A program made the translations under genes and the position numbers. This document shows positions 6,723-64,000 of a DNA stretch of 64,000 nt, one piece after another. Below the pieces are notes generated by a model. It searched no databases. It was not told the DNA's origin and was given only the letters and a program-made list of their open reading frames with translations. This DNA is from Odontesthes bonariensis (lineage: Eukaryota > Chordata > Actinopteri > Atheriniformes > Atherinopsidae): the NCBI RefSeq assembly GCF_027942865.1, contig NC_134524.1, positions 19,893,536 through 19,957,535 on the forward strand. The letters run 5' to 3'. The stretch's first letter is position 1, and the number at the start of each line of letters is the position of its first letter.

Positions 6723-6723
6723 A

Positions 6724-18883: not shown

Positions 18884-21800
18884 TTACAAGTCAGAGCTCC
18901 TCTGCTGACCATCACATGTTTCTGTAAAGATGAACACAAGGGAAAAAAATAGTACACAGATTTCATTCATACCACATCCTTTAAGCAGGCTACTAGCTGA
19001 AAGGAAAATCTCAATACAACAATGTAAAGCTTTACTGCACACCAAACTGCGCACAATCGTTACTCTTCTGCAGTTTCACACTGAGGGTACTCACTCCTCT
19101 GACCGACCCCTCTGAGCTGAACATGAGGTCCAACATCTCCGTCCTCATCTGCCCCTCCACCTGAAATCGTGACAGTTTACGTGCTTGGAGGTCAGTTACC
19201 GAGTTGAAATCGGTTTTAAATGCAGGCCTTCATCATCAAATACAAGTACTGTACCATTTCCAGAGCCTCCGATTGACTCGTAAACGCTAGCATCACCTGT
19301 GGGCCAGTGAAAATAAAGGAATTTGTCACCCAGAAGCCCATGACATTGTTTTACACACTAAAAACTAGAACTATTAGAACGCAAACTAGTATTAGACTGA
19401 AAACTGACCGTGTAGAAGAGAGGAGTATATTTGCTGCGGACTGTCTCCTTGGTTACCAGTTTGGACTGTAGCAGAGGCCTGATGGGTTCTCTGAGACTCA
19501 GTGACTCTGGCACATGAAATGAAATTTTAAAGGAGCATTACTTTTTTTTTTTAAAACCTGCTTAAAGTTAGGCAAAATAACAAGGAATCTGTTGGGTATT
19601 GCTGTTATGCAGACAATTAGGACGGAAAGCGTTGCACGGACCTCTTGCAAAATGTCTCTGTGGAAGAGAGAGTAATTATTACGTTAATGTGATACTGAAA
19701 TGGCAACTTTAAGAAACAGAGTGAAACGACTGCAGCATCTCACCGTTTGATTTTGTGCACCAGCAGATAAGCGACATTGTTAGGATGACGGCCAGCAATC
19801 CACCACTGACCAGTCCAACAATCAGTGACACAGGGGTGGATGCGTTGAGTTCATCTGTCAGTGGATGGCATGAAAGAAGACCTCAGTCATTGTAGAAATG
19901 AGACCTGTTCTGATCGGTTTTTATTTGGCGGTTCATGGAAAGACTGATATTCAATTATATTGTCTCTCATTAACTTAGACAAAAAAAATGTGGCAACCTT
20001 CCAAGTTTAGACTAATAGTCATACTCACATTTCACTGACATCCAACTCTGTGGGGAAACCTCTCCTGAATGCTCACACTTGTAGAAGCCTTCGTCTGACT
20101 TTGACACTGCAGAGATCGTCAGCTCCTCTTTGTCGCCGTTTTGAATCACCTCGTCATTTTTGTAGAAAGCAACAGCGGAGGTAAAGTTTTCTTTCCTCAG
20201 CTTGCAGCTCAGCGTTACGGATGATCCCTCATTCACTGGATGGACAGGACTCACCAGGAGAATATGTCCGTCTGCAGAAGAGTACAGCAGCAAACACGCA
20301 TTCAGTGTTGTACCGCGCATTCGAAAGATGCATCTTTGTGTTTTTCGTCTTCTGTTTTGAATGAATCCATTTCTTTCTAAATGTTTCACCAAGGATTTGT
20401 CGACAATTGGTATTCATTTTTACGGCAGTACAAAACTAACGAGGTATCACACTAGCACTTTTACAGTTAAAGTTTAGCCATTTAATAGATAAAAGAAAAA
20501 GAAAACCTGCCATGTATGGTGATGTTGACTGCATTGCTGAACTCCCCTGATGTAGACTCACACCAGTACAGTCCATTATAGGGAGAGTAACTCTCTATGT
20601 CATACATGGATAGATACATTTCCCACATGTTATGTAATAATTCTTGGAAATAGTTGTGTTCTATTGGCGACCTCATACAGCTCCACTCAGCAGAGTCTCC
20701 ACCAAACCCCAGTGAGACAGACTCAGAGGTGAAGTGCTGCACTCTGCCAGGATTCACTGTGATGGATGCTGATGGATGAAAACCTAAGGGAAAAAAAGCA
20801 GTGAGGAGCAAAACAAAGAGCCAAACAAAAATCACAAGCGGTCCTTCGATGACACGATGACACCCAGACAGTTTTGTACAATGTGTGTGACAGTTACTGT
20901 TTGTTGCCTGAAATGTTTGCCCATAGGTGCGACTGTCTTTACTGCTGTATGGATGAACAAGCTGAGTCTTTGTTCGACATGAGTCAAAGGAAAGAAAGCA
21001 AACGACAACAACAAAAAAAAAAAACTGACCTCCAGACCACACAAACTGCGTTTTGCTGTAATCAGTGTAAAACACTGGGTCTCCTCTTCCAGCTCTACAT
21101 CCGTACCCTGCCGTTTCTGCTTGTCCGTGAATGATGTAGGAACTTTCTTCAGTCTCCCTCGTGTTTCCAGGTAATGGCTCATATGTGTACAAGTAGCCAT
21201 GTCTATGTCTATGTCGAGCAGCATGCCTGCCAAACCAATCAGGAACAGCTTTGTACCAGTAGAACCTCCATCCTGCAGATGGATGTTCCACCTGACAGCT
21301 CAGAGTTACTGAGGCTCCAGGACTCAGCCACGATGGAGACACGGTGAGGACAGGGCTGGGGTGATCTGCTGGAGAGAGATTTGGTTACATGCAATGCTTG
21401 AATACACAAGTTGCGATATATAAAACTACACCATTGCTTCAAATTTGAGAAGAAACTGTTAATAAAACTGAATTGTCCTACGGTCAAATCTTGGCAGTTT
21501 GAAGGAGAAACTCCACTCGGTCGCATGTTGCGGTGCACTTTTCATCCTGCCTTTGCACCAGTAGTGCTGACCGTCTGATGAATAGTCTGCGGTAAACCTG
21601 ACTTCACTTTGGGTCGAAAGTTTATCCGACCCGGTCGTCAGCCATTCATAGGTCCACTCCGTGTTTCCCCCGTGGATCTCACATCTCAGAGAGATGGTCT
21701 CTCCATAGTAAGTGGCAGGCCAGTTGGCCTGCCGCATCACAACAGGCCGATTTGTGTCTGTGTTCAAAATTCACCAACAAGATACAAAATTGCACATGAA

Positions 21801-22993
21801 ATATCAAGAAAAAAAGTTAATCTATATGTAAAATTCACAGACATAGTACTTTAAAAAAAAAAAATTTTTTTCAACAACAACTCTTTGCCACACACCAATT
21901 CTGTTAATACTGATTGAATCACTGTACTCTGTGTAGTACAGACGGTCTCCCCTTCCTCCTCTGCACCAGTACAGTCCTCCCTCTGAGACACTTATTTCCC
22001 CAGCAGAGGAGGATTCTACCTCTTCAGCTCCAGAGGTCTTCCTGCCTCTGTACCAGTAGTATTTCCAACCAGATGATGACGGTCTCACAGAGCAGATCAG
22101 AGTCACACTGCCCCCTACTGGAACAACTCCTCCGGAGGCGCTGAGGTGTGCCTTTGGTCTGCATTCTGTTCAGTTCAGAAGAAATAAAAGACCATTGCTA
22201 TTGTCCCTGTGTCTTAGCACATTGACAGGGTTGAATAAACTCTCTTAGTTCTTTGTAATACCAAACCAGCAATTCTACTGTGTGTTAAATATTCAATTCT
22301 TGCAGATTTTAACACATATAGTTAACAGTAATACGCAGGGCTGTAGTGGTCAAATTAGAGGTGGGTAAACTATGAATTTTTTGATCAGACAGACCGTGAC
22401 GCGACGCAACACAACGTGACGCGACACAGCACAAAGCAACGCAAGGTGTCGCGAATCTGTATGGCTGTCCTGGCCATATTCCATGACGTTATCAGTTAAA
22501 GTCATATTAAATCAATGACAGTCAACAAATGTGTTTGTAGTTTGTAGTTTATTAAATTTCAAATTTCAACAGTAAAGAAAAGTATGTGTAGAGTAAGAAC
22601 TATCTACAGTAGATATAGTGTGTGTGTGGTTGTTTGTGTGTGTGTGTTAGTATGCATGCTTTTTAAAGTAGTGCCCAGAGGGCCTCCTTGTCCGCTACGT
22701 CAGGTTCTGCCTTGCAGGGGCGTGTTCTGGGGTCCATGGCTCCCCTGTGCTTCACCAGCCAGGACTTCATTTCCAGGACACCAAATTTATTTTGGATTAC
22801 AGTGAACCCTCGTTTTTCGCGGGGGTTACGTTCCAAAAAGAACCCGTGATAGGCGAAATCCGTGAAGTAGAAACCTTTTTTTTTTTTTACAATTATTATA
22901 CAATGAAATACTGCATAATGCATTGAAACCAAAGAACAAAGCCGTTTTACAGGCCCAAGCATTTGTTTAACAAATAAAAGTACTGTATAAACG

Positions 22994-23024
<31 letters not shown>

Positions 23025-26000
23025 ACTACTGTAGCCTACTGTAAAATAATCATTTTCATCATCAAGACGAACTGAAGGCTTCAAATTGTGGAGATCAGCA
23101 CTGCCCCACCGCGACCCGAGTCATTGGATTAGAACGGGAGAAAATGAAAAATTATTTTGAAAAAAAATACAAAGTACAGTGGGACAAATAGTGACTCATG
23201 TGTATTTCACTGCTCTTCTGACTGAGCCGCTGCATCCTGACTCCGCTCTGTAGCGTTTTTTTCTTCTAAAGCCCGCGGTGCAGGTGTGTTTTTTTCGAGA
23301 GAAGAGCATAGATCGGTAGTTGTTGTCGCCCTTTTTTTCTTCTGGGCAAAAATATTTATATATACCGACATGCCACCATCGATTATGTTTGAGAACTGTA
23401 ATGAACGTGTACGTGTACATATTAAACCACAACGTTATTGACACACAGGTAGAGAAGAAGCGGAGAGACCGTGAAAGATGAACCGCGTTATAGCGAGGGT
23501 TCACTGTATTCCAACGGCAGATTACAAGGCGCAGGGAACTTTGACGTGCGGAATTGCCATTAAGAGCTGCGTAAACGCTATTTAGAGGTGGGTAAACGCT
23601 ATTTCCTAAATTCCAGAGGTGCGTAAACGGCGTTTACGTGCGTTTACCCTCCACTACAGCCCTGGTAATACGCATGAACTTTGGTTATGGGTGAATCATG
23701 GTTTTGGTTAAATGTTGATGAACTCATACTGTAAGTCACTGCGACTGAATTGCAGAAAACAAACATAAACAAATACAATTAGTCTTGTGCTGCAATTTCA
23801 TCAAACCTTAGAGTCTCTCAGCACGTGTCTCATGACACAAACAACACATCAATAGGTGATTCAATTTAGCCTTGGCATCAGTCAATGAATCACCGCAGAA
23901 GGCGTATTTGCAGAGTTTTACAACAAGCACTCCAAAATGATTAAATTACTACATTTTTAAGGTAAAAAAAAACATTGCAAATTATACTGTAAAACTGTAA
24001 CAAAATCATTAGTTAAACGGGTTAAATCTGAATATTACTCTTAGAAACTTTGAAAACTGGGCTGACTGGGTAGGTTTGGGCAACAATACTTTTTCAAGGT
24101 TGGCTAAAGACCGCAGAGACCAATCCTTCGCTGGTTCCAACAGTGTCATTATGTTTTTTATTTGTTGTGACCGGGCATTTTTATTTAAAAAAATCAAATT
24201 GATTCCCGCTTTCAAGATTTGTTAATTATCAATGCTTCCTCGTCATAGTGACAGAAAATGAAATCAGAGCAGCCGCTATTTTCTGCTGCTTTGCATCGAC
24301 AAAGAACATCACAACAAGATTAAAACTTAACATTTCGATTTGATATGAAGTCCTTCTCACCCAAAACTGTCAGTGTGATGGCGTCACTCCATTCTGTCGT
24401 GGAGAACAAGTCCTGCTTGTGTCTACCCATACAACTGTAGTTTCCACTGCTGGAAGCTGAGGCATTAATGATTGTGAATCCCTTATTTGTGGGAACTGTG
24501 TCTGAGTTGGGTTTGCTCCATCCCACCACCCAATCAGCGTTTCCACCTCCATAGATCTCGCACGTAACAGTGATTGTCTCACCAGCAAATATCAGAGGGC
24601 AGTTGGGGTGCAGGGACACAGCAGCCCTGTTGGAAACTGTTTCAGAAAAGAGGGGTACAGTTTTTAGAGCTGTTTCCGAAACATGGAATTCTCAATCTAA
24701 AGCCATGGCACTCACCTCTGTTTTCAATGGCGACAACATCACTGTCGTCTGTGAAGTCAACCGGCTTCCCTCTGCTTCCTCTGCAAGAGTAGAGGCCTCC
24801 CTGTGAGATGCTAAGAACTTTATCTGGTTTTCCACCTCCATTAACCTGAATTTCCGAAAAGTTGGAGGTATGCCGGAACCAGTAGAATTCCCACTCAGCA
24901 GAGTTTTCCATGGAGCAGGTCAGTGTTGCGTTGCCCCCGACTGTTATGGTTCTTCTGTCGGCCATCACTCGTGGTCTAGGTTTATCTGTTATTAGTTTGG
25001 TTGTGAGAAAGAAAAAAAAAGTATTTTTTGTTGATGGCGAGACGAAACCCAAAAGGAAAAACATGACAGTTTACTTACAGGATACTTGGAGTGTCAAGGC
25101 TTCGCTCCAGTCTGTAGAGGAATACGAGCCCCTTCTACCCTTACACCTGTAGTCCCCGCTGTCAGAAACAGATACAGTGATGCTCTGTTCTCCCTGTGTT
25201 GGGGGTGCGTTTGGGCTCGTTGTTCTCCATTCATACTCCCACTCATTGTTTCTTCCTCCCTGGATCTCACACCTGATGGAGACCATCTCACCACTGAATA
25301 CCTGAGTCCAGCTGTGTTGCAACTTTACAGCGATGCGGTCGGACACTGTTCGTATCAAAAATAGAGTTAATTGGAAACATTACTCACCCTGCTCATCGTG
25401 AATGCATACTTTCCTGTTTTCTATCTTAAAAATCGAATAAACTCACATTTCTTTTCAATGTAAAAGGCTTCGCTGTGCCCTGTGAAGAAAGCCGGGTTTC
25501 CCCTTCTTCCTCTGCACCAGTAGATGCCTTCCTCTGAGATGCGGATGAAGTTTTGAGCAGCATTCGTCCAGTTTGCAGCTTTGTTGGCATCTGGGGCTCG
25601 TGTGAACCAGTCGTATTTCCAGCTGGCGGAGTCCTCAACAGAACAGGTGAGTTTCACCGTGCCGCCTTGTGGAATGGTGGCCATGTTGGCTGTCACAGTG
25701 GCTGTGGGTCTGTGGGCTGTTTTGTGTCAAACATACCTCACATACATTACTTTGTTAAACCTCTCACTTCCTCTTTCGTTTCCAACATTTTGAGTATCAA
25801 TATAGAATAAAAAAAAAAAAAGAAGCTTTAATGTAAAAACAACCACAGATGAACAGCAAGGCATTGCATGTTACACTCAGTGGGGTTACATGGCACTGAA
25901 AGGATCGGATTATTGGCTAAATTACAATAAGACTGAGTTATTAAGTTCACAGTCAAATTAAACTTGCTTGTAGACGGTGTAGCACGTGGGGAATTAGACT

Positions 26001-27589
26001 TTGCGTTCTGGGCATGCTCAAGATTTTTTCCCGGGGTCGGGAACCGGAAGTCGGAAGAGACGATATTACTGTTGTAGTCGCTGTCAGAAAGAAACAAACA
26101 ACGCGATGGAGAATGCGCCGTTGTGCATCGCATTTGTGCAATAAGCAGTTCATCACAAACGAAATATAGAGGGACGTAGCTTCATCTTGCTCTTCGTTCG
26201 CCAGTTTCTCGAATACCTTTTTTTGTTGTTGGTGGTGGTGAAGAGATCAACCGGAAGTGGCTCTATTAGCAATAGTTGAAATGGGTACAGCGCCACCTAT
26301 CGTATCGGAGTATGACATGCTTTGTGCCTATGATTCGATTCATTCAGCGCCATATATCCAAGGATAATTACCCTTGCTCAAATAAGGAGCAACTCAGTCT
26401 TATTGTAATTTAGCCAATAATCCGATCCTTTCAGTGCCATGTAACCCCACTGAGTGTGTCATTATTTATCTCATAAAGTCTAAAATGTAGTAACAGTGTC
26501 AAGAACTAAGTATACCCCATGATTCAGTAGCTTATAGAACCACCATTCGCAGCAATAACTTGGAAGTAATCATTTTCTTTATGACTGTATCAGTCATTTT
26601 GGAACATTATTTTTTAAAGCTTTGCTTTTGTACATTTAGGCACACCTAAGGTCCCAGCACAGCATTTCAATCAAATTGAGGCCCAGACTTTGACCGGATC
26701 ACAGACAACACCTTCGCTCTTTGTTTCTTCGTCCTTTTTCAACCATTCAGTTTTAGATTTTGCTGCTGTGTTTGGGATCTGTGTCCTGTTGAATGACCCA
26801 ATTTCAGCCAAGCTTTAGCTGTCTGACAGATGGCCTCACATTTGACTCCAGAAAATAACTTAACATTTAATGGACTTTAACATTTGACGTGTATTTAACC
26901 GTTTCATTGACCTAGCCAGGAGCAGATGATTTTTAAAGGAGACATATTTTACCTATTTAAACAAGTTAGAATTGGTCTATGAACTATACAAAACATTTTC
27001 ATGAAGTTCTTTGCACAAGATCACTCTCACATAAAGAGATTTCACCAGCCCTATTCTTGCCAGTTTCAGTCTCTCCCAAATTGAGCCGTTTAAAGGGCTC
27101 TGTCACTTTTATGCAAATAAGCTGTTTTTGGCCACGCCCCGCCCCGCTCATGAGAAGCCTCTGGCTGCGTGTACTGTTTACCCTTTTGTTTTGAGGGTCC
27201 AAACGTACATATATGTACTCAAGTGATAAAAGGTACATATATGTACCTTTTTTGAGGGTCCAAAAGGTGCATATATGTACTCAAGTGGTAAAAGGTACAT
27301 ATATTTATCTTTTTTTCTACATGCTGGGGTACAATAGACATTCTGTGTTTGGCTACTTCAGTATAAGGGTACAAAACTATACCTTCAGAGGGTACTGCCC
27401 CAGTGACAAGCCATCATACCCCTAAAGGTACAATTCTGTACTTTATTTTCTGAGAGTGTAATTTTAAACTGTTTTTTTATTCTTAGATTGTTTTTAAAGT
27501 GTTTATAATTGTATAAACATTTTTATTATTGCTTTATTATGTCTTGCTACTGGATGCTTGAATTTCCTTCGGGATCAATAAAGTATCTG

Positions 27590-27658
<69 letters not shown>

Positions 27659-30409
27659 TCCCTATGAATTAAGGGTTCATTTGTTTTCAGTGCAGAGCTT
27701 CTGCAGTCTCCAGCCTGACTCACCTGTGGTGCGTTTCTGGAGCTCCAGTCTCTGCCGGTGATACCTCCCGGTGGTTTTCACAGCCGCGAACAGGTCAGCC
27801 TGTGTGAGCTGCTCCACCGGGGCCGAGGGGGAGCACTCCTCCACGCCGGGCCAGCCGCCTGAAATAAGTTGAGAAAACATCCGTGCCCCCTGCAGCCGGC
27901 AGCGCCAGTGAGCACGAGAATCCCGGCCGCCAGCAGACAGGTGACCGCGGCGACAGCAGCGCGAGGTCCCGCTGAGCTGAAGGCGAGCCTCGGTCCCCCG
28001 GCAGGCTTCCACAAGTTCACTGCCTGGATGGGTTCACCACTTCGCTCATGGACAGGAAAGAAGTGTTTTCTCAACAGCGGGACCTCGCGCTGCTGTCGCC
28101 GCGGTCACCTGTCTGCTGGTGGCCGGAATGCTCGTGTTTTCTCAACTTATTTCAGATGGCTGGCCCGGCGCGGAGGAGCGCTCCCCCTCGGCCGGTGGAG
28201 CAGCTCACACAGGCTGACCTGTTCGTGGCTGTGAAAACCACTGGGAGATATCACCGGCAGAGACTGGAGCTGCTGCTGGACACCTGAGTCTCCAGAAACG
28301 CACCACAGGTGCAGCCAACAACACAACACTTCATGTGTGATTTTCCTTTCGTAGCCATTGCGCTCGTATGCTCGATTCACGATGGCGGATCTTCAACTAA
28401 TGTAGAGGGTGGGGAGCGGGTGGGGAGTGGGTGGGGACTCGACAGGTATATGCAAATTCCCCTATTGTGACGTCACAATAGGGGAGCCATCCAAATGGCT
28501 CACAGAAGCATTTTTTTCTTGACACCAAAGTCTTTCTACTGACCTACAGAAAATGGATGGATGGGTTTTTTCGCGCTTGGAGTGTTTAAAGGAACAGTAG
28601 AGACCCAAATATGAACACAAAGTTCGCAAAAAGTGAGTTTTGCATAATATGTCCCCTTTAAAAAAAAAACTTTCCCTCTTCCATTTTCCCAATCCTCTCC
28701 TTCTGAATACAGACACAGTCAATTCAAATTCAATTCAATTCAAAAATACTTTATTTATCCTAGAGGGAAATTAAATGTTGATGTAGCTCAATTAAATCAA
28801 AGAGTTATTATAGATGCTGATGGCTGTGGGCAGGAAAGATTTCCTGTAGCGGTCCGTTTTGCATCCAAACTGAAGAAGCCTTTGACTGAGGAGACTCTGT
28901 TTTCTGATAACAGTCTCATGGAGAGGATGTTCAGGGTTGTCCATAATTCTCTTGATTTTATGCAAATTTTATGCAAGATGTCATGTGACAGTTCATGCCA
29001 CATGCCAACATGTTGTAGTTGCTGATAACCAGTCACTTTTCTTTTCAAGCTTCGCCCCAGTCTGCCACTGCCTTTGAAAATAAATTCCCTTTGAACCTGC
29101 ACCAGCCTCGGTGTCTGGATTTTGGGCATAAGTCTTGCTACATTATATTTTCTTGATACGCACTGAAACTTTACTGAAGTCGTTTGGATAAAATGACTTG
29201 TTTTTCTTATGATACAGATCTAAAGAGAGGCCACGTCTCCCGCATCACCGGCTTTTTTCATCACTGCATGGTCTTGCCATCCGCTGTTCACACATCTGTG
29301 GTCACACTGCTCTCCAAAAATACTCACAGTGCTGATCACGTCATCACTTGCCTCAACCTTCTTTTACAGTCTTTCAAATGCTCCACCTCCAGACCAGCTT
29401 TCACAGATGGGTCCTGAGTCCACATTACCCTACAAGGCAAGCCGTAAGCAGTGCCGCACCCCTGCTCTGTGCTGCACTGAGCGTATCTCGATGATGACGA
29501 TGATGATGCCAAATATAAACTTTGTAGTCAAATAACCAAAGATAAGATACAAAGAATGAATGAGAGCAGAAATTTGTCATAGCACTGAGTTCTTGTGCCT
29601 TGCACAAAAAGTTCATTTTTAGCTCATTTGCAGTTAACACGACTCCCAACCCTTCTCTTACATTGTTTTCTCTTGATAATGTCTATACCACTTTTTAGGT
29701 GTGGCTAAGCTGCATTTGATGATAAAGTTAGCAGCGGTGACAGAAAATGCTTACCTGATACTGACAGAGTGAGGTTGTTGCTCTCTTTTGTAAAACTCTC
29801 TGAGCCCTTCCGGTGACCAATGCACTGATAATCCCCCCTCAGGTCTGCCGTTAGGTTCATCGAGAAGGAGTTATTTGCCATGATGGGAGCAATTTGTCGA
29901 CCATTCCGGTTGAACTCATAAAGCCAGTCTGTGACACTTCCATTTCTTATGTCACACTTCAAGGTAACGGACTCTCCAGCAAATAAACGAAATGAGTCGT
30001 GTTCGAGGGACAACTCAGCATCTACACTCAAATGAAAACATACAGGCCAACTGCAGTGAATGAGTTATTGATATAAGCCTTAACGAGAAGAAATGTGTTC
30101 CTAGGAGTTAAATGAATAGAATGCCATAAAAAGATTAAAAAAAGATTTTCAATCACCTTGAGTATGTCCACAGTAGAGGAGTGTGTTCAGCGCTAAAATC
30201 AAAGATTGATATCTCAAATTATCTACGGTCGCATACAGAAAATCTTCAACCGAAGCTTTTTAACGATGCAGACATTTCATCACAGGAGGCTGCAGTTCAA
30301 ACATTTGACATTTTGTTATTACTACATTTTATCGAACCTGTTTTATTGAAAGAAAGTAACTTCTGTACTCACAGAATAAGGTCAGTACACAGAGCACAGC
30401 GTACCTCAT
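18884..30409 (-). CDS. Gene A: Fc receptor-like/LITR-type receptor, 10 Ig domains, ITAM-like tail
   Basis: Eighteen exons: 30409-30373 and 30192-30157 (split signal peptide, MRYAVLCVLTLF then SLNTLLYCGHTQ); Ig domains 30021-29755, 25716-25447, 25345-25079, 24985-24716, 24636-24361, 22165-21896, 21757-21482, 21365-21030, 20783-20511, 20271-20029; membrane exon 19854-19744; cytoplasmic exons 19657-19642 (16 nt), 19506-19409, 19296-19255, 19160-19095, 18921-18884. The total is 3,192 nt, 1,063 codons plus stop, all in frame. Each Ig exon is phase 1. The tail joins QQIYSSLLH to GDASVYESI, giving YSSL-x7-YESI, an ITAM spacing; SVYESI alone also fits an ITIM. The ninth Ig domain lacks its B-strand cysteine. 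The donor after it appears to be GC rather than GT. Domain order reads B-(AB)3-C-D-E. The split signal peptide and phase-1 exons are hallmarks of the Fc receptor-like family. Two shorter genes are possible, but no second signal exon was found. Confidence 0.8.
22336..23664. mobile_element. hAT element in gene A intron, hosting a nested element
   Basis: The ends read cagggctgtagtgg on both sides (inverted). A perfect 8-bp duplication gtaatacg flanks it (22328-22335 and 23665-23672). It carries a GT-rich microsatellite near 22618-22650 and the nested Tc1/mariner-pogo-type element at 22800-23506. No transposase frame is left. Confidence 0.85.
22800..23506. mobile_element. Nested Tc1/mariner-pogo-type non-autonomous element
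   Basis: Inverted ends start CAGTGAACCCTCG on both sides, flanked by TA (22798-22799 and 23507-23508). It lies wholly inside the hAT element 22336-23664, so it arrived later. Confidence 0.8.
25873..26458. mobile_element. TIR element with long perfect inverted repeats, unclassified
   Basis: About 65 bp at each end (starting ACACTCAGTGGGGTTACATG) are essentially perfect inverted repeats. No coding frame and no clear target duplication. Lies in the intron of gene A between the first and second Ig domains. Confidence 0.75.
27470..27658 (+). mobile_element. LINE 3' end with (TATC)n tail
   Basis: The string ttccttcgggatcaataaagtatc followed by about 17 TATC units is the usual 3' end of a fish L2/CR1-type LINE. 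It sits inside the TTAA-flanked element. Confidence 0.6.
27717..28312. repeat. Large imperfect palindrome (foldback)
   Basis: About 27717-27880 is the inverted copy of about 28130-28312. An inner pair (near 27936-27978 and 28075-28122) is inverted too, with the centre near 28015. The region is GC-rich, unlike its surroundings, and would fold into a long hairpin. Confidence 0.75.
28735..29000 (-). mobile_element. LINE 3' fragment (Rex/CR1-like), minus orientation
   Basis: The minus-strand translation contains NSLDFMQ-like and FRLLSENRVSSVKGF-type text ending in a loose KSFLPTAIS-like motif (here NLSCPQPSASI). An ACTTTATTTATCC motif near 28747 marks the 3' side. The copy is short and worn. Confidence 0.45.
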
Positions 30410-30589
30410 CCTCACATCAGACACTTTGCCTCTGAACGTGAGTCACATGAAAGAGAAGGAAGAGAAATGGGGAACTGCAGAGAAAATAAGTAACATGTCA
30501 TTTAAAGAAGAGAAGAATTCAGCCCAGCCTCTTTTTCATCTCATTTCTGCTTCCCTTTTTTAGAGTAAACTCAGTACTACGCCGATTAA

Positions 30590-31658: not shown

Positions 31659-31662
31659 TTAA

Positions 31663-45690: not shown

Positions 45691-45843
45691 ACAATGCTTC
45701 GGTTTGGTTTCATCAATACAGCGTGCAGGATAACCTTGTCGGAGAATCCCAGGAAAACTGTAGACTCATCTGAGATGTAAGGATGTTCTTAAGAGTCGTA
45801 ACACATTTGATATGTTGCAAAATAAACCACCACAGCACGCAGC

Positions 45844-48800: not shown

Positions 48801-51800
48801 CAGTTTAAGATGAAATATAAAAACATTGTTCAAAGGTGAGACCTCGGCATGGAGGTACCTCATTTTGATCATGTTTTACACTGTAACATAAATATTAAGT
48901 GGCTATTTCACTGTGCAGTTATTTTATTCCCAACATATTGCTGTTTTCACACACATAAACTATTTCTTCTCATCTATATCATGTTCTGTTAAATACTTAT
49001 GCCTATTTAAACTAACACAGACTTCTACTGAGCCAACAGAAAGAAGGCAGATGCCCGTAAAACGGGTGGTGCCCAGCACCACCACCTCTAACGGGAGGCC
49101 AGTGGCTGAGGGAGTCCACCCCCAAGAGACAAGTGCCTTTATAAAATATAATAGGCCTATATGTCTTTTTTAAGCCTATTCATAAAAATATTTATTTGTC
49201 TTTTATGTCTTTTTTTTCTTTTGTCCCAACAAAATTGTGATGGTGCCGCTCAAAAAGATAATTGTCTGTAAATGCAAAAATCAATGCGCGGTCTGATAAC
49301 CATCTCCGGCGAATATTTAATTATCTGCGCAATAATGCTGCACCTTCATCCACGGGATCGTTGTCAAAAAGACATGTTCGTGAAAAAAGTCGCCTCCTAC
49401 TGTGCCTAAAGGACTTCGAGAAGTAGAAGAACTCGCTCTGCTGACTGAATGAATGAGAAAATCAAATGGCGTGTGTGGCTGAAAGAGGGCGGAGACAGAG
49501 AGAAACTCGAGGTTTCTTGAGGAAAACCTGGTCCCGACCAGGTTAGGTTCAGAGATTCTGTTACTACGGTAACTGACCGAGAGGTTAAGTTACCTCTCTT
49601 TGTGAAACAGGCTAGAGTTACCCCTCTTTCTCGGGGTTGAGTTACCTCCCTTTGTGAAACGGAAAACTCAGGGTTTCCCTCATTTCAGGGTTAACCTACT
49701 CAGAGTTTTCACTAAACCTGCTTCGTGAAACGGACCTCTGGGGTCTGTACCACAAAGCAGGATTGGTGGCTTTGCAAGACAACTTCGGGTCGGCTTTGGA
49801 TTTTCAGTATCACAAAGCTGGTTGGCTTCTTACTGGTTTGAATCTCCATGGCAAGTAATGCTAAGAGACCATTACAAGTAAAAGCCTCCTAAACTCCCAC
49901 TGTTGTTACCTCACTTTCTACATGTTAGGGTGCTTTGCTTCCACTTGGGGGCATCTCATAAATAGGGGCAACAGAACTCAGGCTCAGAACATTTATACAT
50001 ACTTATTTCCAGAAACAATCTCAAGATAAGTGCACATATTAATAACAACTGAGCAAAAGATGAATGAGTTATTGCTAATTTCCCCTGAGGCCACGCCCAC
50101 TGCAACACATCTCCATCTCTGTCTCTTGTTCTGTTTGATTGATTTTGTCCATTTATCAAAGAATTATATAAATCAGTCCAACGATGGTGCAAACCAAAAC
50201 TGGTGAAGTAGATGTCAATTTACAGTTTTTCACATTATGCAAATGAGCTCAATACTCATTATGTTTTTGTTCAAAAGGTATTTTGTAGAAAACTTTGAGC
50301 TTGATATCCATGGAAATTTTAAGTCGATCAGATATACTGTGTGGACTTCATGTGGACTAAATATTCACTTTTTGGCTGTTGATCATTTTGCCATCATGGG
50401 TTTTATATGGATCCCAATTATTTTGGAGTATTTGTCCTTCATCTCTAATAATGCTGGCAGATTAGACAAAGATAAAATGATAACATACGCTGTGCAGTGA
50501 TATTGATTGCATTGCTGAACTCTCCTGATCCAGACTCACACCAGTACACTCCATTATGGTACCCGTCAATGCTGATGGTACATGCGGATGCATTTGTTTT
50601 CCACCAGCTGGAACAGCTTGGTAAATATGACAGATATCTTGTTTCTGTAGACCACATCACTCTCCACTCAGCAGAGTTTCTGTCACACTTCAGTGAGACA
50701 GACTCAGAGGGGAAGTGTTGAACTCTGTCAGGGCTCACTGTGAGAGATGCTGCTGGGTGAACATCTGAAAAATCAAACATGTAATGTGGAGTAAAGCTAA
50801 GCACACTGATATTTAGTGTAAAACCATCTCTTCTCAAATATTCTCAGCAACTTCAACTTTGTCTTGTTGAAGATCAGAACAAACATTTCAAACTAATAAT
50901 CATTTATACAATAAAAACAAATTAATTACAAAGAATATAGATGTTCTTCTATGTATTTTGTATTTTGTACATTTGTCATTATTCCACTGCCTCACCTGAT
51001 CAGCTTTAACTTCTTGTAAAGATTTTAAACATAAAATAAGCTAACAGCAAGTATTTTAAAGTAAAATTATTTCAAAATCTCATTCAGCTTTTGTTTTTCA
51101 AACTATCAGTTTAAATGTGTAAGAGCAAAGGTCATTTTTATTCTTGTGGTGCAGTGAGAACAGAAAGAGAACTGACCTCCAGACCAGACAAACTCTAGTT
51201 TGCTGTAATAAGTGTAATGCTCTGGATCTCCTCCCCCAGCTCTACACACATAACCTGCTGTGTGCGTCTGTCCATGGATTACGTAGAAGTCCTGTGCAGT
51301 CCCATTGGTGGTTTCAGGCAGCAGCTCATAATTATATGAGTTGTGTGATTGATCAGGAACAGCTTTGTACCAGTAGAACCTCCATCCTGCAGACTGATGA
51401 TGAACCTCACATCTGAGAGTTACCGAGGCTCCAGGACTCAGCCAAGATGGAGACACAGTGAGCCTGGATACTGTTGGAGAGAGATTTCCTTCTTTTTTTT
51501 TTGTATTGTTTTGTTTATATGTTTTTATTTCCCACTGAAAGCTTGTTCTGTCCAGTATAATGTCTCAACTCTTCCCATGTGTACAACATGTTACAACAAA
51601 TAACAATTGTGTTTAAATTATTTGAATCAAAGAAAAAAAGTATCATAGCTTACCATTCATAGTGAGGTTAACTGCATTGCTGAACTCTCCTGATCCAGAC
51701 TCACACCAGTACACCCCGTTACGGTACTGGTAACTGTGTATGTTGCATGAGGATCCAGTCATTGTCCCCCAGTTGGAGCATTCTGACAGGTAGCCTATTC

Positions 51801-54454
51801 CTGTAGACCTCATCACTCTCCACTCAGCAGAGTTTCCGTCACACTTCAGGGAGATATCATCAACAGTGAAGAGATGAAGTCTGTCAGGACTCACTGTGAG
51901 AGATGCTGCTGGATGAGAACCTGAAAAACAAGTAACAAGGAGTCCACCAGATCACAGAAGAATTACTGTTAAAAACGTGTCAAAGCAGTTAATCATTTGC
52001 TTTCTTCATTTTTTTATCACCTGTTGGAGATCACTGAAAAATCATAATATCATATATTAATATAGTTTTCAAGAGAGTGTTCTCCTGGAATACAAACAAT
52101 GAACCAAGGGGAGAATATAACAGTAATTAATGAACAGAAATAAACTGACCTGCAGACCAGACAAAACGTGGATAACTGTAATAGCTGTAATACTCTGGGT
52201 TTCCTCTTCCAGCTCTACACGCATATCCTGCTGTGTGTGTCTGTTCATGGATGATGTAAGAACCATGTGCAGTCCCACTGGAGCTGGCAGGCAGAAGCTT
52301 ATAGCTGTACAGGTCATACTTGTTTGTTAGATCAGGAACAGCTTTGTACCAGTAGAACCTCCATCCTGCAGACTGATGATCGACCTCACAGCTCAGAGTT
52401 ACTGAGGCTCCAGGACTCAGCCGTGATGGAGACACAGTGAGGACAGGCAGGGGTTTATCTGCTGGAAAGAGATTTGATCTGAGTGAAAACATGTCATGAA
52501 GAGTTTGGTTTCATAAAATTTAATTCAATTTTTGTTAAGATGTTATCTTCAGATAGGTAAAAAAAATGCGATATCACCGCATACCGCGCTGTTGAGCGGC
52601 TATGAGTCACCGCGGTGGGAATTCCCTCACCGCGACAGCCCTAGTTTGGTTTCATAAAATTTGATATAATTTTTGTTGAGATGTTATCTTCAGATAGGTA
52701 ACAACAGGACTTAGATCCTTAATCTAAATGTCTTTGATATTTCAATTCAATTACACTAACCACGCACAGCTTTGGTTTTGTAGCTGTTCAGTTTACAACA
52801 AAGACATCCATCCATCTAAAAGGATGCAACAGGTGAATATTAAATATCACCAGCCCTTAATAAGTGAAATATAATGTAAATGTATTATGTACACACAAAT
52901 ATCTTAATTCCTCTGTCAATTGTTTTTCTTTTTTCTTTATTAAAAATTAATCCCATTGGTATATTTCAAATACACGTGAGGATAGAAAGTTCTCAGATAC
53001 TTACAATTTCTTTTGACATTTTAGTGGATTTCATTTCTGAATAGAATGATTTTTTTCTCTCGTCAGTCTATACAGACTGAAAAGCAGCTTTGGTAGATAA
53101 ACCAGCCTGTAATCTTGAATGATCTTACAAGCTTGATACACTTTTCATTCTGATTTTTCTTCCATTCTACTTGGAAGAATTGTTCCAGTTATCTGCAGAT
53201 ATTTCCTCACTCTCTTCACTCATCTTTTAATTTGCTGGCAGCTGGATGAATTGAAAGTTCCATTAAAAACTGTTACAAAAATCCTCTTTTTCAAATTTCC
53301 ATTTTATATCGATCTAATGGACAGTAAAATGATCTCATCTCATCTTAAAGGTTTCCCTTTTTTAGGTTTTCCTGGTTGTATGCCTGCAAACTGAACTACA
53401 AACCTGTACTTTTCTTTTTCCTGGAGTAAGAAGAGGCCTAGAGGAGACAGATGCTGCTATTGGAGGACAAACTATATGATTTATTGAGGAGAAAGGTGAC
53501 TGGGTTGTGTAACTCAAGTCCAGTTATTCTGTCATATATCAACTACAATGAAAACTAGTCCACAGCCAGCACCACGGATAAAAGCTGGACTCACACCAAG
53601 TTGTAGTCAGACTACTGGTGATACTTCAAAAAAGAAAAGAAAGAAGCACTGTTGGAATGCATTAGGTCAAACCACTATGACCCCCCCCTTCCCACTATAG
53701 ATATCACCAGTTTTATTGCATAAGTAGGAAAAACAACACTGAATGTCCATAATTATTGACTTTGACTTTGTCCACCTGCTGGTCACATCAGACTCACCAG
53801 TGTATCACCACCATGTTCATAATGACATGCATTCACCTCTTCCTGGTAAAGATATGACTTCCTTAACTAAAACTGTTTGAGCGCTAATCCTAACTTGTAA
53901 CATGATTGTTGCAGCAACACAACAAACTACAGACACAAAAAGAAGATGCAGCTCAGCGTGATGAAGATGATGGTAAATGAGCGAGTAAAAAAACAGTAAA
54001 GAGAAGGTTTTTCAGTTACCTTGAGCATGTCCACAGTAAAGGAGTGAACTGAACGCTGAAAGGAGGATTGACACTTCATTAGATATCAAGCTGAAAGACA
54101 CAGAATCACTGAGAAAAAAAAACATTCAGAACACAGAGATGATGGCATCAGCTGTTCATGAATCAACAGCATCGCAAACTGACAACAAAGTTAGAAATGA
54201 GGAAGGAAGCATCATGGTAGAATGCAAAATTAGATACAAAGAGAAGGAACTGTTTTTTAATAAAGAAATGTAGCACTGAGTAAATGAAGTATTATAGATT
54301 GGCAGTCGTCTCAGTATTGTGCAAATCTCTTTGTCGAATGAACCCACAACATTCTGATCTGACTGCAAATAATTGACTTCATCTGCGCTGCTCAAACAGA
54401 ACAGAAAGTGATGTACTTACACAGAAGCCCCAGCAAAAGCAAGTTCGGCCCCAT
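45844..54454 (-). CDS. Gene C: inhibitory Fc receptor-like/LITR-type receptor, 5 Ig domains, two ITIMs
   Basis: Thirteen exons: 54454-54421, 54055-54020 (signal peptide MGPNLLLLGLL then SFSSLLYCGHAQ); Ig domains 52458-52150, 51920-51654, 51470-51177, 50764-50489, 47805-47563; membrane exon 47455-47336 (SSLFLVLLIVGTVGGIIFII); tail exons 47245-47230 (16 nt), 47141-47056, 46298-46242, 46145-46086, 45929-45844. The total is 1,884 nt, 627 codons plus stop, in frame throughout. Domain order is C-D-C-D-E, a tandem duplication of the C-D pair. The tail exon that in genes A and D carries the first ITAM tyrosine reads EHSSPLN here, so that tyrosine is lost. The tail instead has ATYSLI and two ITIMs, AVVYSHVK and AVVYSEVR. 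I infer an inhibitory receptor. Confidence 0.85.
46553..46607. repeat. Interstitial telomere-like repeat
   Basis: About nine near-contiguous CCCTAA units, with a few variant units, in an intron of gene C. Confidence 0.9.
47336..48185 (-). repeat. Segmental duplicate of the gene D region (63168-64000)
   Basis: The E-type Ig exon, its flanking introns and part of the membrane exon are nearly identical to the gene D region. The E exons differ at only two residues. The match continues through about 370 bp of intron to the right edge of the window. Confidence 0.85.
48341..49741. mobile_element. Harbinger-like element with Myb/MADF-type protein remnants, in gene C intron
   Basis: Inverted ends: CCAGGGGTCCGTTTCACAAA and CCAGAGGTCCGTTTCACGAA. 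The interior (plus strand, about 48570-49130) keeps pieces of the small DNA-binding protein of Harbinger elements (GEKRTLQQFKMKYKNIVQR, then STEPTERRQMPVKR). There is no DDE transposase. Target duplication unclear. Confidence 0.6.
49742..49840. mobile_element. Fragment of a second, related TIR element
   Basis: ggggtctgtaccacaaagca directly abuts the previous element and resembles another Harbinger-like end. The partner end was not found. Confidence 0.35.
52500..52700. repeat. Direct repeat of about 58 bp flanking a hAT-like end
   Basis: The segment tttggtttcataaaattt ... cagataggtaa occurs at about 52502-52560 and again at about 52645-52701. Between them lie about 80 bp ending in ccgcgacagccctag, which looks like one terminus of a hAT element. 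Confidence 0.65.
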
Positions 54455-55859: not shown

Positions 55860-56221
55860 CAGTTTTTCTCGATTGCTTTGACACATTTTGCACATCATGG
55901 GTCAACTTTATCTAATGCTCACACCTTCTTTGCACAGCAAGAGTCCTCTCTGGTGAATCAGTTAACTATTTCTCATTGCTTTCACATAATTTTCTTTGAC
56001 TTTTAATACACTTTTCAAAACAGTTAACACACTTCTCTCAAAGAGACACGAAACATAACTGATTTACCATGGCAACACATTGCAGACACTCAGTAGCAGC
56101 CAATTGGAACTGCTCTCTCAATTCTAAAAATTATCAGCACCTGTGTGAACTCTCTTTGCAAAACAAAGCAAGTAGTTCTCAACCTATCAAAGAGGTCAAT
56201 AGCTTGAAGTTGACACCAAGC

Positions 56222-59200
56222 ATGGATCGAGGAGGACGTGGACGAGGACAAGGAAGAGGAAGAGGTCGTGGGAGAGCTAGACAGGCCCCTGCCAGGGGAG
56301 GTGGCCCTGGTGTTAGGAGTTCCAATGAAATTACAGCAACAATCATTGACCATGTTGTAAATCATGGTCTCTCCATGAGAGAGGCCGGACTAAGGGTGCA
56401 GCCAAACCTGAGCAGGCATACGGTGGCATCAATAGTTCGTACTTTCCGCAATGAAAATAGGTAAGTCACTTTGCTGGTCAATTTACGTACTGTACTGTGT
56501 TTCACTGTATTTGCACTCTTGGTAACAGCCATTTCTGTACTATTGTAAAGTGTTGCCATACAGCAGTGGTTCTCAAACTTTTTTGGTCATTCCCCACTTT
56601 GAACAAGTGGGGATTTCCAAGCCCCACCTGCCCCGGTCGCCCCAACAAAAATATTGATAAATTACATTTCAACTCGATTGAACTAACACCAAGTAACATC
56701 ATATTTTATAATGAATCAAAATCAATAACATCAAATAACACAAAGTTCAAAAAGAGAAAATAAAAGCGTTTAATTTGCAATCTGTGCAAAAAACAAAAAC
56801 AACTAAAATGTATCCCTGCATTAGTGGCTGCAATGAGCCTGTTTTGCACTGCACAACTTCTCAAAACGTGGTTGCAGGCTTGAAACTGCCACTCTCAAGT
56901 CATGCTCAATGTTGAGCTGAGATCTGTATTTTGTTTTCAGAGATGCCAAAGCTGAGAAGCATGTGGTTGCATTTCTGGATTCTGTATGTAACTTTGTATG
57001 AGGCCATTTGTGCTTGACTGTTAACCGTGCTTTGCTCCTGCTGTAGATTTTCTTTTAAAGAAATCCAGTGGCTTGTTAACGTGACAGGGGTATGTTATAG
57101 TGATGGGATACTCGAGTTTGTATGAGTCACTCACTAAAATGAATCGGGTTTTCGAGTCACTTGAATCAATCACCCAGAGTGTGCGCCACGGAAGGTACAA
57201 ACAAGTTCCAAACCACGTCCCAAATCATTGTGAAAAAGGCTAAAAATCAAGAAGTCTCCAAGGCCAAACATTTATTTTTCTTTCTTTCTCTCTAAAAAAA
57301 TTCAAATAACCCAAATAGCCAATGAATTAACATTCATTGCAAAACAGTGCAAAATTATAATAAAATGTATGAAACTGTGCACGAATAGAACATTTAAATA
57401 ACCTAAACAATAGTGCAAAAATAATAATATTCTAACATTCAACACTGCACCATTAGAATAAAATAATTATGTACAGACTGAATGAACTCCCGCTTCCTTC
57501 AAAATAAAGCCGGAAGGGAGAGGGAGCTGTGAGCTGCCTGTGAACTGTGAGTCGAGTGTAAATCATGAGTCCTGAACTGTGTGGAGCAGAGAGCTGGCGA
57601 GTTTCTCGGGTATGGGAGGGGCTCTACGAGCTGGGAGGGAGCGCGAGCTGTATTAGCGCCGCTTCAGCCACGGAGCTAATACAGCAATTAGCTTTATACA
57701 TTTACGCAATTGCAGTTAGAATAATAGTTGTGTGGCATGTCTCCTCTTTACAGTTAGCTGACAGTAGCAGCGGTGAGTCAGTGAACGAGTTAATGGAGAC
57801 AATGACTCATAACTCCTGAGTCAGTAAAAAGAATCTCGAGTTTTGAACGATTGACTCACGAATCGCACATCACTAGCGTGTTATCTCCAGGTGTCTCCTT
57901 AATTTGTTTGGCCTCATGCTGTCCGCTGCTAACGGCTTCAGACACAGAGCACACATCGGTCTGTCCTCTGCACCGACCATTGCAACCGTGAATCCTCGAC
58001 CAAGATAGTGTTTGTGATGGTGCTGGCTCCTTTTTGGTCCGAGCCACAAATATTATCTTTATTGTCAATAAAGAAAAGCATTTAAGATGGGCATAAAATT
58101 TAAAATTTCCTCCCGTTTGTCGCGCCCCACTTGCCATGTCTCCGTTCCCCACCAGTGGGGCGCGCCCCACACTTTGAGAAGCACTGCCATACAGTAATAC
58201 AATGCATTACTGTAGTTTTACTAGAGTCACTTCCAATAGAGTACTGTAACTGACTTTCAAAATATACAGTAGAATTCTGATTACTGTACATTTACAGTAT
58301 TTACAGTCATTGGCACTATTTTCACAGAATCAACACACTGGCCCACACTGGTGGCAGGGGAAGAATTTTCTCTGCTGAACAGGAGGCTGCCATTGTGAAC
58401 ATGGTAGTTGCTAACAATGCCATCAGATTGCGTGAGATAAAGGCAGCGGTCTTAGCTGACCAGGTGACTTTTATGAACATAAACAGTGTCAGTCTGGCAA
58501 CAATAGACCGCATCCTGAAACGCAATCTGGTGGCAACCAAGCAGCTATATAAGGTGCCATTTCAAAGAAACAGCGACCGCGTCAAGGCAGCACGTGCACT
58601 GTATGTACAGGTATGGATCTGTCACTGCATTTGGATTTGTCTTGCTGCATACTGTAAAATTCAATTACAGTAGAAAACAGCATCTTCTGTATATGTTACT
58701 GCATGATTTACTCTGAATTTCTTTTTGAATGTAGAGAGTAATGGATCTGGAAGCAGACGAAAGGCAGTATGTCTTCATCTACGTCGATGAGGCTGGATTC
58801 AACCTCTCCAAAGTTAGGAGACGTGGCCGAAACATCATTGGTCAGAGGGCCACAGTAACCGTGCCTGGACAGAGGGGAGCAAACATCACCATGTGCGCTG
58901 CTATTTCCACAAATGGAGTCCTTTGCCATATCCCATCTATAGGCCCATACAACAGTGATCGCCTAATCACATTCCTCAATGCATTGCATGAGCGGCTGGT
59001 ACTGCCACAGGAGAGAGGCCTGTTCAGGGCAAACATGTCCCATTTTGTCATAATTTGGGACAATGTGGCCTTCCATCATTCAAGGTTAGTGAATGACTGG
59101 TTCACGGCTCACCCACGCCTGACGATATTGTTTCTCCCTGCATACTCTCCCATGCTAAATCCAATCGAGGAGTTTTTCTCCTGCTGGCGTTGGAAAGTAT

Positions 59201-59400
59201 ATGACCATAGGCCTCATGACCAGATGTCATTGCTCGATGCAATGAATGCTGCATGCTTGACAATCCGCGCAGAAGACTGCCAGGGGTGGATTCGCCATTC
59301 AAGACGTTTTTTCCCTCAATGTATTGCAATGGATGACATACTCTGTGACGTGGATGAGAACATGTGGCCTGATCGTCAGGCCCGTGTCGACAATGCGTAA
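56222..59400 (+). CDS. DD35E transposase, IS630/Tc1/mariner superfamily, intact in three exons
   Basis: Exons 56222-56460, 58328-58610 and 58735-59400 sum to 1,188 nt, 395 codons plus stop, in frame, with consensus GT/AG sites. The N-terminus is Arg/Gly-rich (MDRGGRGRGQGRGRGRGRAR) and is followed by helix-turn-helix-like text (MREAGLRVQPNLSRHTVASI). The catalytic core shows FIYVDEAGFN (first D), IIWDNVAFHHS (second D) and LNPIEEFFSCWRWKVYD (E), with 35 residues between second D and E. It would cut and paste DNA at TA sites. The start was chosen at the Met of the Arg/Gly-rich segment; an upstream in-frame Met at 56069 would add 51 residues. The first intron is enlarged by the hAT insertion; whether it still splices is unknown. 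Confidence 0.85.
56564..58186 (-). mobile_element. Composite hAT element, copy 2 (inside transposase intron 1)
   Basis: 1,623 bp, the same length as copy 1, in opposite orientation, with a perfect 8-bp duplication ccatacag (56556-56563, 58187-58194). All long open frames of copy 1 recur unchanged. The inner nested hAT is present at about 57098-57875. Confidence 0.9.
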
Positions 59401-60094
59401 CTTTCCTGTATTTTTATTTTTTTCATATTTACAGGGTTTCATTTCATTGTGTTTCATTTACAGTACTTTCTTTTTTGAGAATTGACCTTTGTTGTACTGC
59501 ATATTGAACCCTGTCATTTTGATTGCTTACAGTATGTGCATGTGACAAGTACTGCAAAAAATATTTTTCTGTCAGAATCTTGTCAGAATCTTGCCATTTT
59601 GTACACAGTAGAACAAATGTAAATCAATGGTGTTGACAGGTACTTCAGCAATACAAAAACAGATCTACAATATTTTACTGTATACACATTTTCTGATTTT
59701 ACTGTAAATACTCTGTGACAGTATATTTCTAAGTTATATAACTAAGATAGAGTACTCAATACAAAACCCAAATTGTAGTATGTTGTCAGTTGTAAAATAG
59801 TCAATACTATGAGGGTGTTGAACAAAAGCTGATATTGATAGCTGTAGTTTCAATTTTGTTATCCATTATTAAATAAATGAGAAAACATACATGTTCAATT
59901 GAGCACAAATTGTAGGTTTTGATGGAAAAGTTTGGTTTTGATGGATGTGTGACAAGTTTTGAGAAAGTGGTGTCATTCTGCAAACATCATAAAGTGTTTT
60001 GGTTATTTCAGCTTCTGTTAAGGGCTTTGTGTGAGCTGTTTTGAAAAAGTAAACTGTGAATGGAAAAATGGGCCAAAACGATCGGGAAAAACTG

Positions 60095-62283: not shown

Positions 62284-64000
62284 TTAGACGTTAGCGTAAT
62301 CACTCCCCCCTCGGTCTGAAACAATGTTATTGACTTTCATGTTAATCACAGTTTTTGTATGATTATAAAGCTTCCACCAACTCTGTGTTTATACTGTACC
62401 ATTTCCAGAGTTTTCAGGCCCTCTGATTGTTTCATAGACACAAAGGTCTCCTGCAGGTTAAGTGAAAATACAAAAATACAGTAAAAACCTTTAAAAAAAA
62501 AAAGGTTACTAATGTCCTGTCTTGATTAAATTTAACAGTGTTAAAGCTGCAGCAGATAAAATAAGTAGTCTTGGAGAAGTGGATGTGATAGAAGGGAATA
62601 TTTCCTGTTGGTGTGATTATGAACTCCTGAGTGTTTCAGATATTAAAGTATATGAAATAACTACTAATACTTTTCGTATTCAAGTGAAATATAACTTTGT
62701 TATGTGTTACAGAGCACAAACGTGAACAAACAAGGTGAAAGACTGACCATGGAGGAGGGAGGAGTATACTTGTTGCTCATTTTCATACTGGCCGACTCTT
62801 TCATCTCCAGTAGAACCTGCAGATGAGAAAAGAGTTGAAACTGTAAAATGTCATGCTGTTCCCCCAGATCATGACCTCATGAGGAAATGTTTGCTTGAAT
62901 ACTGACAAGGTGATATCAAATCAAAACAAATCACATGTATTTGTATAGCACATTTCATGTACAAAACAAATCAAAGTGCTTTACATAAAATAAAAGCATT
63001 GCAGCGGGGAGTGGAAGAAGTATTAAAAATACATAAAAGAATATAAAGAAAAACTATTTAAATAATTTAAATTAATTTAAAAATAAGCAACAGTCCAGAT
63101 GAATTATAAGATTAAAAGATATTGTGCAGATATATATATATCGGAAATCAGAGGAGGAAGGTCTCACCTGCAGATTGTCTGCAGCGATACGGCAAGAACA
63201 GGAAAATAATGAATATGATTCCACCAACTTTTCCAACCATCAACAGCACAGGAAATAAAGAGCTTTCTGGCCTGGACACATCTGTTTTTACAACTTTAAT
63301 GAACAATAACTATTGATTAATAAGACCAGATCATATTAGACTTCCACAACAAATCATTTAATGAATAAAAACCATTAAAAGTTTTAATCCTACTCACCCC
63401 TAACTGACATCCAGCTCGGTGGTGAAACCTTTCCTGCATGTTCACACTTGTAGAAACCTTCGTCTGACTTTGACACAGCAGAGATGTTCAGTTCTCCTTT
63501 GTGATCATTTTGGAGGAGTTTGTCATTGTGATAGAAAGATACATTGGAAAGTGGAGTTTGTCCTCTTTGTCTGCAGCTCAGGGTAACAGAAGCTCCCTCG
63601 GTCACAGGATGGGCGTGGCTCACCAGGATAATATCTTTGTCTGTCAAACAAGTCAGAAAATACTAGTTTTTAGCTGTAGCAGAGCTTTGGAAAGCTCTTA
63701 TGTTCAATTAGAGTTGATTACACACATGGTTTTTATCAATATTTGACATTTAAACTTGTGTACCAACCAACTACAGCATGTCTAAAAAACCTTTTACCAA
63801 ATAAACAGCAGATTTTTACAGCATCCGAGAGTAAATCAGAATGTATGCAGAACAGTATTTTCATTTAGTTAAAAAGTCACATCGATCTAAGTATCAGTTT
63901 CTGTAGATAGAAAAGTTTAATTCCAGAGGCTGAAATTACTGGAACGAATACAAACAAGTTCAAAATATTTTATAATATCAAAATATTTTTTTCTGTAGTT
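62284..64000 (-). CDS. Gene D (partial): Fc receptor-like/LITR-type receptor with transmembrane Lys and ITAM-like tail
   Basis: Exons seen: E-type Ig 63640-63398, membrane 63281-63168, tail 62816-62748, 62450-62400 and 62315-62284 (stop). The rest lies beyond the right edge. All junctions are phase 1 and in frame. The membrane segment reads FPVLLMVGKVGGIIFIIFLF, with a lysine where gene C has threonine. In activating receptors such a lysine pairs with an acidic residue of an ITAM adaptor. The tail itself joins QQVYSSLLH to GDLCVYETI, giving YSSL-x7-YETI (ITAM spacing), and ends SDYANV, which fits an ITIM. It lacks the 16-nt tail exon found in A and C. Nearly identical to gene C in the Ig exon. 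Confidence 0.8.

Follow-up and report, generated by a model that had tools for sequence, protein, structure and literature searches.

A tandem cluster of four FCRL-type receptor genes with ITAM-like and ITIM/ITSM tails in the fish Odontesthes bonariensis, including a probable anchor-tail mosaic

The stretch of Odontesthes bonariensis DNA analysed here, 64,000 nucleotides of contig NC_134524.1 (assembly GCF_027942865.1, positions 19,893,536 to 19,957,535) and referred to below as the window, carries on its minus strand, from position 18884 to the window end, four related receptor genes of the immunoglobulin (Ig) superfamily arranged in tandem and named A, B, C, and D. Exon models were made by hand from Ig, transmembrane (TM), and tail anchors, with AG/GT borders and a consistent phase required. 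The predicted tails contain candidate immunoreceptor tyrosine-based activation (ITAM), inhibition (ITIM), and switch (ITSM) motifs on exons labelled CY1 to CY4, and the modelled features are as follows.

18884-30409 (-): receptor A, whole gene, in-frame model
30409-30373 and 30192-30172 (21 bp) (-): A signal peptide exons
19854-19744 (-): A TM exon
19657-19642 (-): A 16-nt exon
19409-19506 (-): A tail exon CY1, ending in IYSSLLH
19255-19296 (-): A tail exon CY2, with VYESI as second half of the ITAM-like motif
19095-19160 (-): A tail exon CY3, 66 nt, tyrosine-less
18884-18921 (-): A tail exon CY4, short, stop TAA
33467-41913 (-): receptor B, whole gene with four Ig exons, in-frame model
41913-41877 and 40787-40767 (21 bp) (-): B signal peptide exons
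37139-37011 (-): B TM exon
34352-34302 (-): B first modelled tail exon
33692-33754 (-): B tail exon CY3, ITIM LLYAEI
33467-33522 (-): B tail exon CY4, ITSM TVYSGV
45844-54454 (-): receptor C, whole gene, in-frame model
54454-54421 and 54055-54035 (21 bp) (-): C signal peptide exons
47446-47336 (-): C TM exon
47245-47230 (-): C 16-nt exon
47056-47141 (-): C tail exon CY1, HSSPLN where A has YSSLLH
46242-46304 (-): C tail exon CY2, TYSLI (lone YxxI)
46086-46145 (-): C tail exon CY3, ITIM VVYSHV
45844-45929 (-): C tail exon CY4, ITIM VVYSEV
62284-63640 (-): receptor D, 3' end, the rest lying past the window edge
63640-63398 (-): D membrane-proximal Ig exon
63281-63168 (-): D TM exon, with a lysine inside
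62816-62748 (-): D tail exon CY1 (YSSL)
62450-62400 (-): D tail exon CY2 (YETI)
62315-62284 (-): D tail exon CY3 (SDYANV, stop)

The models of A, B, and C run from the start to the stop codon without interruption (1,059, 472, and 622 amino acids, stop excluded), and exons join in frame between AG acceptors and GT donors, with the sole exception of a GC donor (gcaggt) at a 273-nt Ig exon of A (20783-20511). The same exon (20511-20783, minus strand) is without the first core cysteine, reading SLGFGG where the C copies read SLKCDG, and it can be skipped with the frame kept. This exon and a 1.65-kb transposon copy in the TM-to-tail intron of B might point to decay of some of the genes, with tails that have ceased to signal. 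Such decay is very doubtful, however, given that the exons modelled for A, B, and C all have open frames and join in frame, and that the odd exon can be left out without frame loss. The number of Ig exons is ten in A, four in B, and five in C, the last being a two-exon module in duplicate plus a membrane-proximal exon, and D is represented in view by its last Ig, TM, and tail exons. The module of C is duplicated in tandem (50489-52461, minus strand), with copies 78% and 82% identical. The TM exon of D starts at an ACAG acceptor, likewise found in C and A, and nine bases upstream of it there is CAG in C and TTG in D.

A, B, and C are placed with FcR/FCRL receptors on account of their signal-peptide exons and their matches among PDB chains. 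FCRL5 comes first and FcgammaRI next for the ectodomains of C (E 2.2e-20) and B (3.9e-17) and for the last three Ig exons of A (1.9e-12), to which the comparison of A was limited; D, with an Ig exon 99% that of C, was left out. Neither KIR nor LILR chains occur among the 41, 17, and 49 PDB matches of C, B, and A (E 0.001, complete lists), Pfam gives only Ig-type families for A, B, and C, and two Ig domains of C found no match among viral contigs. The second signal-peptide exon measures 21 bp in A, B, and C and gives the joined readings SLNTLLY, SVSTLLY, and SFSSLLY, the three exons having been picked for mutual likeness from 1, 2, and 3 candidates of that length. The first, picked from 9, 8, and 9 hydrophobic ATG candidates by donor, phase, and likeness, has a coding length of 37 nt in A, 37 in B, and 34 in C, as against 30 in the FCRL description, where a two-exon signal peptide of 30/21 bp is a hallmark of mammalian FCRL1-6, FcgammaRI, and FCRLB (PMC2413239). 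Ig and TM exons are in phase 1, as in FcR/FCRL genes, in models where phase 1 doubled as a guide for placing exon borders. The signature (M/L)Fxx(D/N)TxL, given for the TM segment of classical activating FcRs in the same source (PMC2413239), is missing in all four TM segments.

Regarding the tails, A has the ITAM-like motif YSSL-x7-YESI (YSSLLHGDASVYESI) and D has YSSL-x7-YETI (YSSLLHGDLCVYETI), both conforming to YxxL/I-x6-8-YxxL/I with the halves on two separate exons. The motifs of B are SYNVT, LLYAEI, and TVYSGV, and those of C are HSSPLN at the first position, TYSLI, VVYSHV, and VVYSEV; the ITIM consensus I/V/L-x-Y-x-x-L/V/I fits LLYAEI in B and both VVYSHV and VVYSEV in C. The first ITAM tyrosine codon is TAC in A and D and CAC (His) in C. 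The exon-by-exon rebuild therefore recovered the motifs that the original prediction had named for A, D, and B as well as the lost first tyrosine and the two VxYxxV ITIMs of C; its mixed activating and inhibitory tandem family is supported by motif, and its FCRL kinship is borne out in A, B, and C by the matches of the Ig domains and by the layout of the signal-peptide exons, the distal part of D lying outside the view.

Exon pairs joining into YxxL/I-x6-8-YxxL/I were also sought by scanning, which returned three junctions on the minus strand and none on the plus strand. Two of the three are the tails of A and D, and the third reuses the second tail exon of A. Dinucleotide shuffles of the minus strand gave a mean of 0.03 junctions, 2 of the 60 containing one, in a scan whose donors and spacing were fixed after A and D had been seen and which favours both. 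Lone-motif matches weigh little, since VYESI of A fits the loose ITIM as well. D may not be purely activating, because its last motif, SDYANV, is a loose ITIM only (Ser at -2) and also a YxN, and because its CY1 holds another YxN (YENE). A lysine within the TM segment is found in D alone, C having threonine there (ACA to AAA), and this residue could pair with an FcRgamma-type adaptor.

For B, no convincing first tail exon (YSSL) was found: the search gave three candidates that overlap, end at 36449, and use one common donor, but none is CY1-like, and all were dismissed by eye. In a tail-exon tblastn across the window, no second set of tail exons appeared behind any gene at E < 2, and the two ITIM exons of C matched each other. 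These exons (45844-46145, minus strand) are alike at 8/13 residues around the motif, as if one had been copied from the other.

The closest relationship within the cluster is that of C and D, which share the following block.

47315-48162 (-): C copy of the C/D shared block, 93.8% identity over 859 aligned positions
63147-64000 (-): D copy of the block, running off the window

Some 20 bases past the TM exon the block stops, and within about 40 bases of that exon the likeness is gone. In segments of 40 alignment columns, 36-40 columns are identical from 48100 down to 47500, with 39-40 in the Ig exon; the counts across the TM exon are 35, 35, 34, and 24, those behind it are 15-21, and the first two segments, at the end of the D sequence, have 29 and 31. 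The membrane-proximal Ig exon is identical in C and D at 241 of 243 bases and the TM exon at 97 of 111, and in the codon alignment of the latter, 15 base changes lie in codons with an amino acid change and 3 in silent codons. An assembly artefact, or two haplotypes of one gene placed side by side, would likewise give high identity over some 850 bases up to the window end. However, the identity is 93.8% for the block as a whole and varies along its length, and the tails behind it are unrelated, so that C and D are not alleles of one gene; both alternatives are highly improbable.

Informative sites group C with D in the Ig exon (65 sites, with 1 grouping A with D) and in the TM exon (45, with 7), and group A with D in CY2 (14, with 2 for C and D) and in the last 31 nt of CY1 (10, with 4). 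The Fisher p value for the switch is 1.5e-15 when the last 31 nt of CY1 are used, 5.5e-12 with the whole CY1 alignment, and 9.9e-12 with CY2 alone. In local alignments behind the TM exon, made with no tail model, A-D alone of the six pairs tops all 60 shuffles (45 vs 33), its match falling at the YSSL exon, and C-D stays below the shuffles (28 vs 33). At the protein level, CY1 and CY2 of A and D match each other (E 0.005-0.18), and the tail exons of C match neither those of A nor those of D. Because the likeness switches from C-D in the Ig and TM exons to A-D in the tail, a recombination or conversion border would lie in or just behind the TM exon. The pattern of a mosaic is visible in the alignments, and from it we infer the process, either recombination or gene conversion; judged from sequence, the signal change between C and D is best explained by recombination between the TM and tail exons and not by stepwise mutation.

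The relations among the tail exons were expressed as z scores against 300 shuffles for 30 exon-pair comparisons. For CY1 they are 4.3 (A-C), 5.5 (A-D), and 3.6 (C-D). For CY2 they are 7.8 (A-D), 3.3 (B-C), 1.9 (A-B), 1.8 (B-D), 1.4 (C-D), and 0.2 (A-C). For CY3 they are 2.7 (A-C), 2.0 (B-C), 0.1 (A-B), 0.3 (A-D, coding part only), 0.2 (C-D), and -0.9 (B-D), and for CY4 3.6 (A-C), 2.9 (B-C), and -1.1 (A-B). When CY3 of D is extended to the same donor as CY3 of A, the two agree at 38/66 positions without gaps, which 0 of 20,000 shuffles reach.

It can be hypothesized that one ancestral tail was altered in each gene by point mutations and small indels, without recombination. The alignability of CY1 in A, C, and D above shuffles, the TAC to CAC change that separates C from A and D, and the second tail exon common to B and C are in line with such stepwise switching. 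However, the 99% identity of C and D in the last Ig exon gives way to no significant likeness behind the TM exon, where it is A that D resembles. For point mutation alone to produce this, the rate would have had to change very sharply at the TM/tail border, and this history is quite unlikely. A better candidate, though still tentative and probably not the full account, is an ancestral tail with both ITAM-like and ITIM motifs followed by complementary decay, in which A would have lost the ITIMs, C the ITAM, B the first tail exon, and D the last. C retains a YxxI exon beside its two ITIMs, A has tyrosine-less exons alignable with C at the CY3 and CY4 positions, and D keeps SDYANV in a CY3 akin to that of A. 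On the other hand, the supporting pairs are the better ones among 30, several others being near or below zero, the A-C and A-D alignments place the tyrosine in different columns, and the tail exons of B and C do not match each other at the protein level. Since the C/D break is left unexplained by decay, decay would add to recombination between TM and tail exons and not replace it.

Overall, the reading to which we assign a probability of roughly 0.75 is that of four tandem FCRL-type genes, A and D with their own ITAM-like tail and B and C with ITIM/ITSM tails, D consisting of the anchor of C and a tail of the A type. In A and D the ITAM-like motif is divided between two tail exons, in B and C there are ITIM/ITSM exons, and the four genes would act as paired receptors. 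Upon clustering, the tails would be phosphorylated by Src-family kinases, whereupon those of A and D may engage Syk-type kinases and those of B and C SHP-type phosphatases, as suggested by the motifs and by ITAM/ITIM biology. The membrane-proximal Ig and TM exons of D go with C and its tail with A; presumably recombination or gene conversion, at the border proposed above, brought the anchor together with a tail of the opposite type.

Several points weigh against this reading. Between C and D, the TM exon is more diverged than the Ig exon, and the near-identity of the latter could come from later homogenisation rather than from the joining event. The sites of the whole CY1 are mixed (11 for A and D, 14 for C and D, 9 for A and C), its identities are close (A-D 49/68, C-D 43/63) and undecisive by themselves, and the tail exons are short, with site counts that vary with the alignment. 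The residue at -3 of the first ITAM tyrosine is Gln in A and D, where the ITAM definition in PMC10562807 asks for D/E, and ITAM-like is the stricter word for both tails for this reason. Lastly, D is clipped by the window edge and visible only from its last Ig exon onward, and the whole analysis covers the genomic sequence of one 64-kb window from one species.

Between TM and tail, the models of A and C include a 16-nt exon that has the same length and position in both and takes the phase from 1 to 2. The motif frame requires it in these two genes, and the models of B and D do without it; its donor in A (gtccgt) is weak. The entry phase of CY1 is 2 in A and C, where the 16-nt exon precedes it, and 1 in D; shared tail exons have matching exit phases, and the entry phase of the ITIM exons is 1. 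The original prediction of a match in position and phase among the tail exons of A, C, and D thus stands for the exit phases and falls for the entry of CY1 and for CY2 of C, which does not align with A or D above shuffles (z 0.2 and 1.4). Its further proposal of a signal change traceable from exon to exon holds for the Tyr to His change in CY1 of C and for the tyrosine-less or truncated later exons of A and D, and fails at the C/D break behind the TM exon.

Leaving the 16-nt exon out of A or C shifts the frame and loses the motifs, and splicing could therefore switch the tail off. Without it, the frame of A is open over 79/79 codons tested, which 10.7% of codon shuffles equal, and that of C stops after 63/96 codons, a length reached in 53% of shuffles; neither result supports selection. 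A more speculative and rather unlikely history is that the ancestor had a single tail for both functions, made up of an ITAM-like part and two ITIM exons and framed only through the 16-nt exon, that its copies lost opposite exons, and that D acquired an activating tail on the C anchor by recombination without the 16-nt exon. A literature search for ITAM/ITIM tails with a microexon gave no match.

Elsewhere in the window, a 1.65-kb element, which we take to be hAT-like, is present as two inverted copies (34523-36168 and 56549-58194) of 99.6% identity, with ends CAGTG(G/C)TTCTCAAA and apparent 8-bp duplications CTATAGGC and CCATACAG. One copy lies in the TM-to-tail intron of B, where the first tail exon would be expected. 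An inverted repeat of about 1.26 kb and 90% identity (6712-7953 and 15167-16376) bears one C-type lectin exon in each arm, more Lectin_C open reading frames are found at 8339-8815 (minus strand) and 14459-15004 (plus strand), and the open reading frame at 58735-59397 (plus strand) holds a DDE_3 transposase domain (E 1.7e-24).

Tails with an ITAM of their own and tails with an ITIM are both found in human FCGR2A/2B/2C, and 2C arose from a crossover between the two; these receptors have two Ig domains and belong to a lineage different from the genes described here. In CEACAM1/CEACAM3-type pairs, exons and introns are homologous, often including the TM exon, and ITIM/ITSM tail exons have been replaced by ITAM-type ones; the TM/tail border is the same as in C and D, and marsupial members have the YxxLx7YxxI spacing (PMC2832619). 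However, the CEACAMs are another receptor family, and nearly all the pairs covered there are most alike in the N-terminal domain exon, whereas C and D are so in the membrane-proximal Ig exon, the only one of D in view.

Mammalian FCRL1-6 are similar in the FCRL5/FcgammaRI top matches, the 21-bp exon, and tails combining ITIM and ITAM-like motifs (PMC10562807; PMC2413239), and some act positively or negatively by context (PMC10562807). Unlike them, A has ten Ig exons, and human FCRL1, as described in PMC10562807, has a less regular motif than the YxxL-x7-YxxI found in A and D. Salmonid NILTs are clustered fish Ig receptors, among which rainbow trout NILT2 has an ITAM and others have ITIMs, but they have one or two V-type Ig domains and ITIM exons in phase 0, and the sequenced Atlantic salmon cluster has ITIM members only and is therefore not mixed (PMC3022915). 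The 10, 4, and 5 Ig exons and the phase-1 entry of the ITIM exons do not fit a NILT identity. Catfish LITRs, compared by description only, are likewise fish paired receptors with some FcR D1/D2-like Ig domains (PMC2413239), although the stimulatory LITR described uses an FcRgamma-like adaptor and not an ITAM of its own (PMC4810170).

Mixed-tail paired receptors are thus known, and what is added here is fish FcR-like members and one well-marked mosaic, with no claim that the cluster is unpublished. C and D form a natural pair with a near-identical membrane-proximal region, opposite kinds of tail, and a border visible to within tens of bases, and they permit a simple comparison of two tails on nearly one anchor. 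If related fish and the complete D gene show the same pattern, tail exchange of the CEACAM type would also occur in fish FcR-like receptors, and the receptors concerned would use an ITAM-like tail of their own and not an adaptor.

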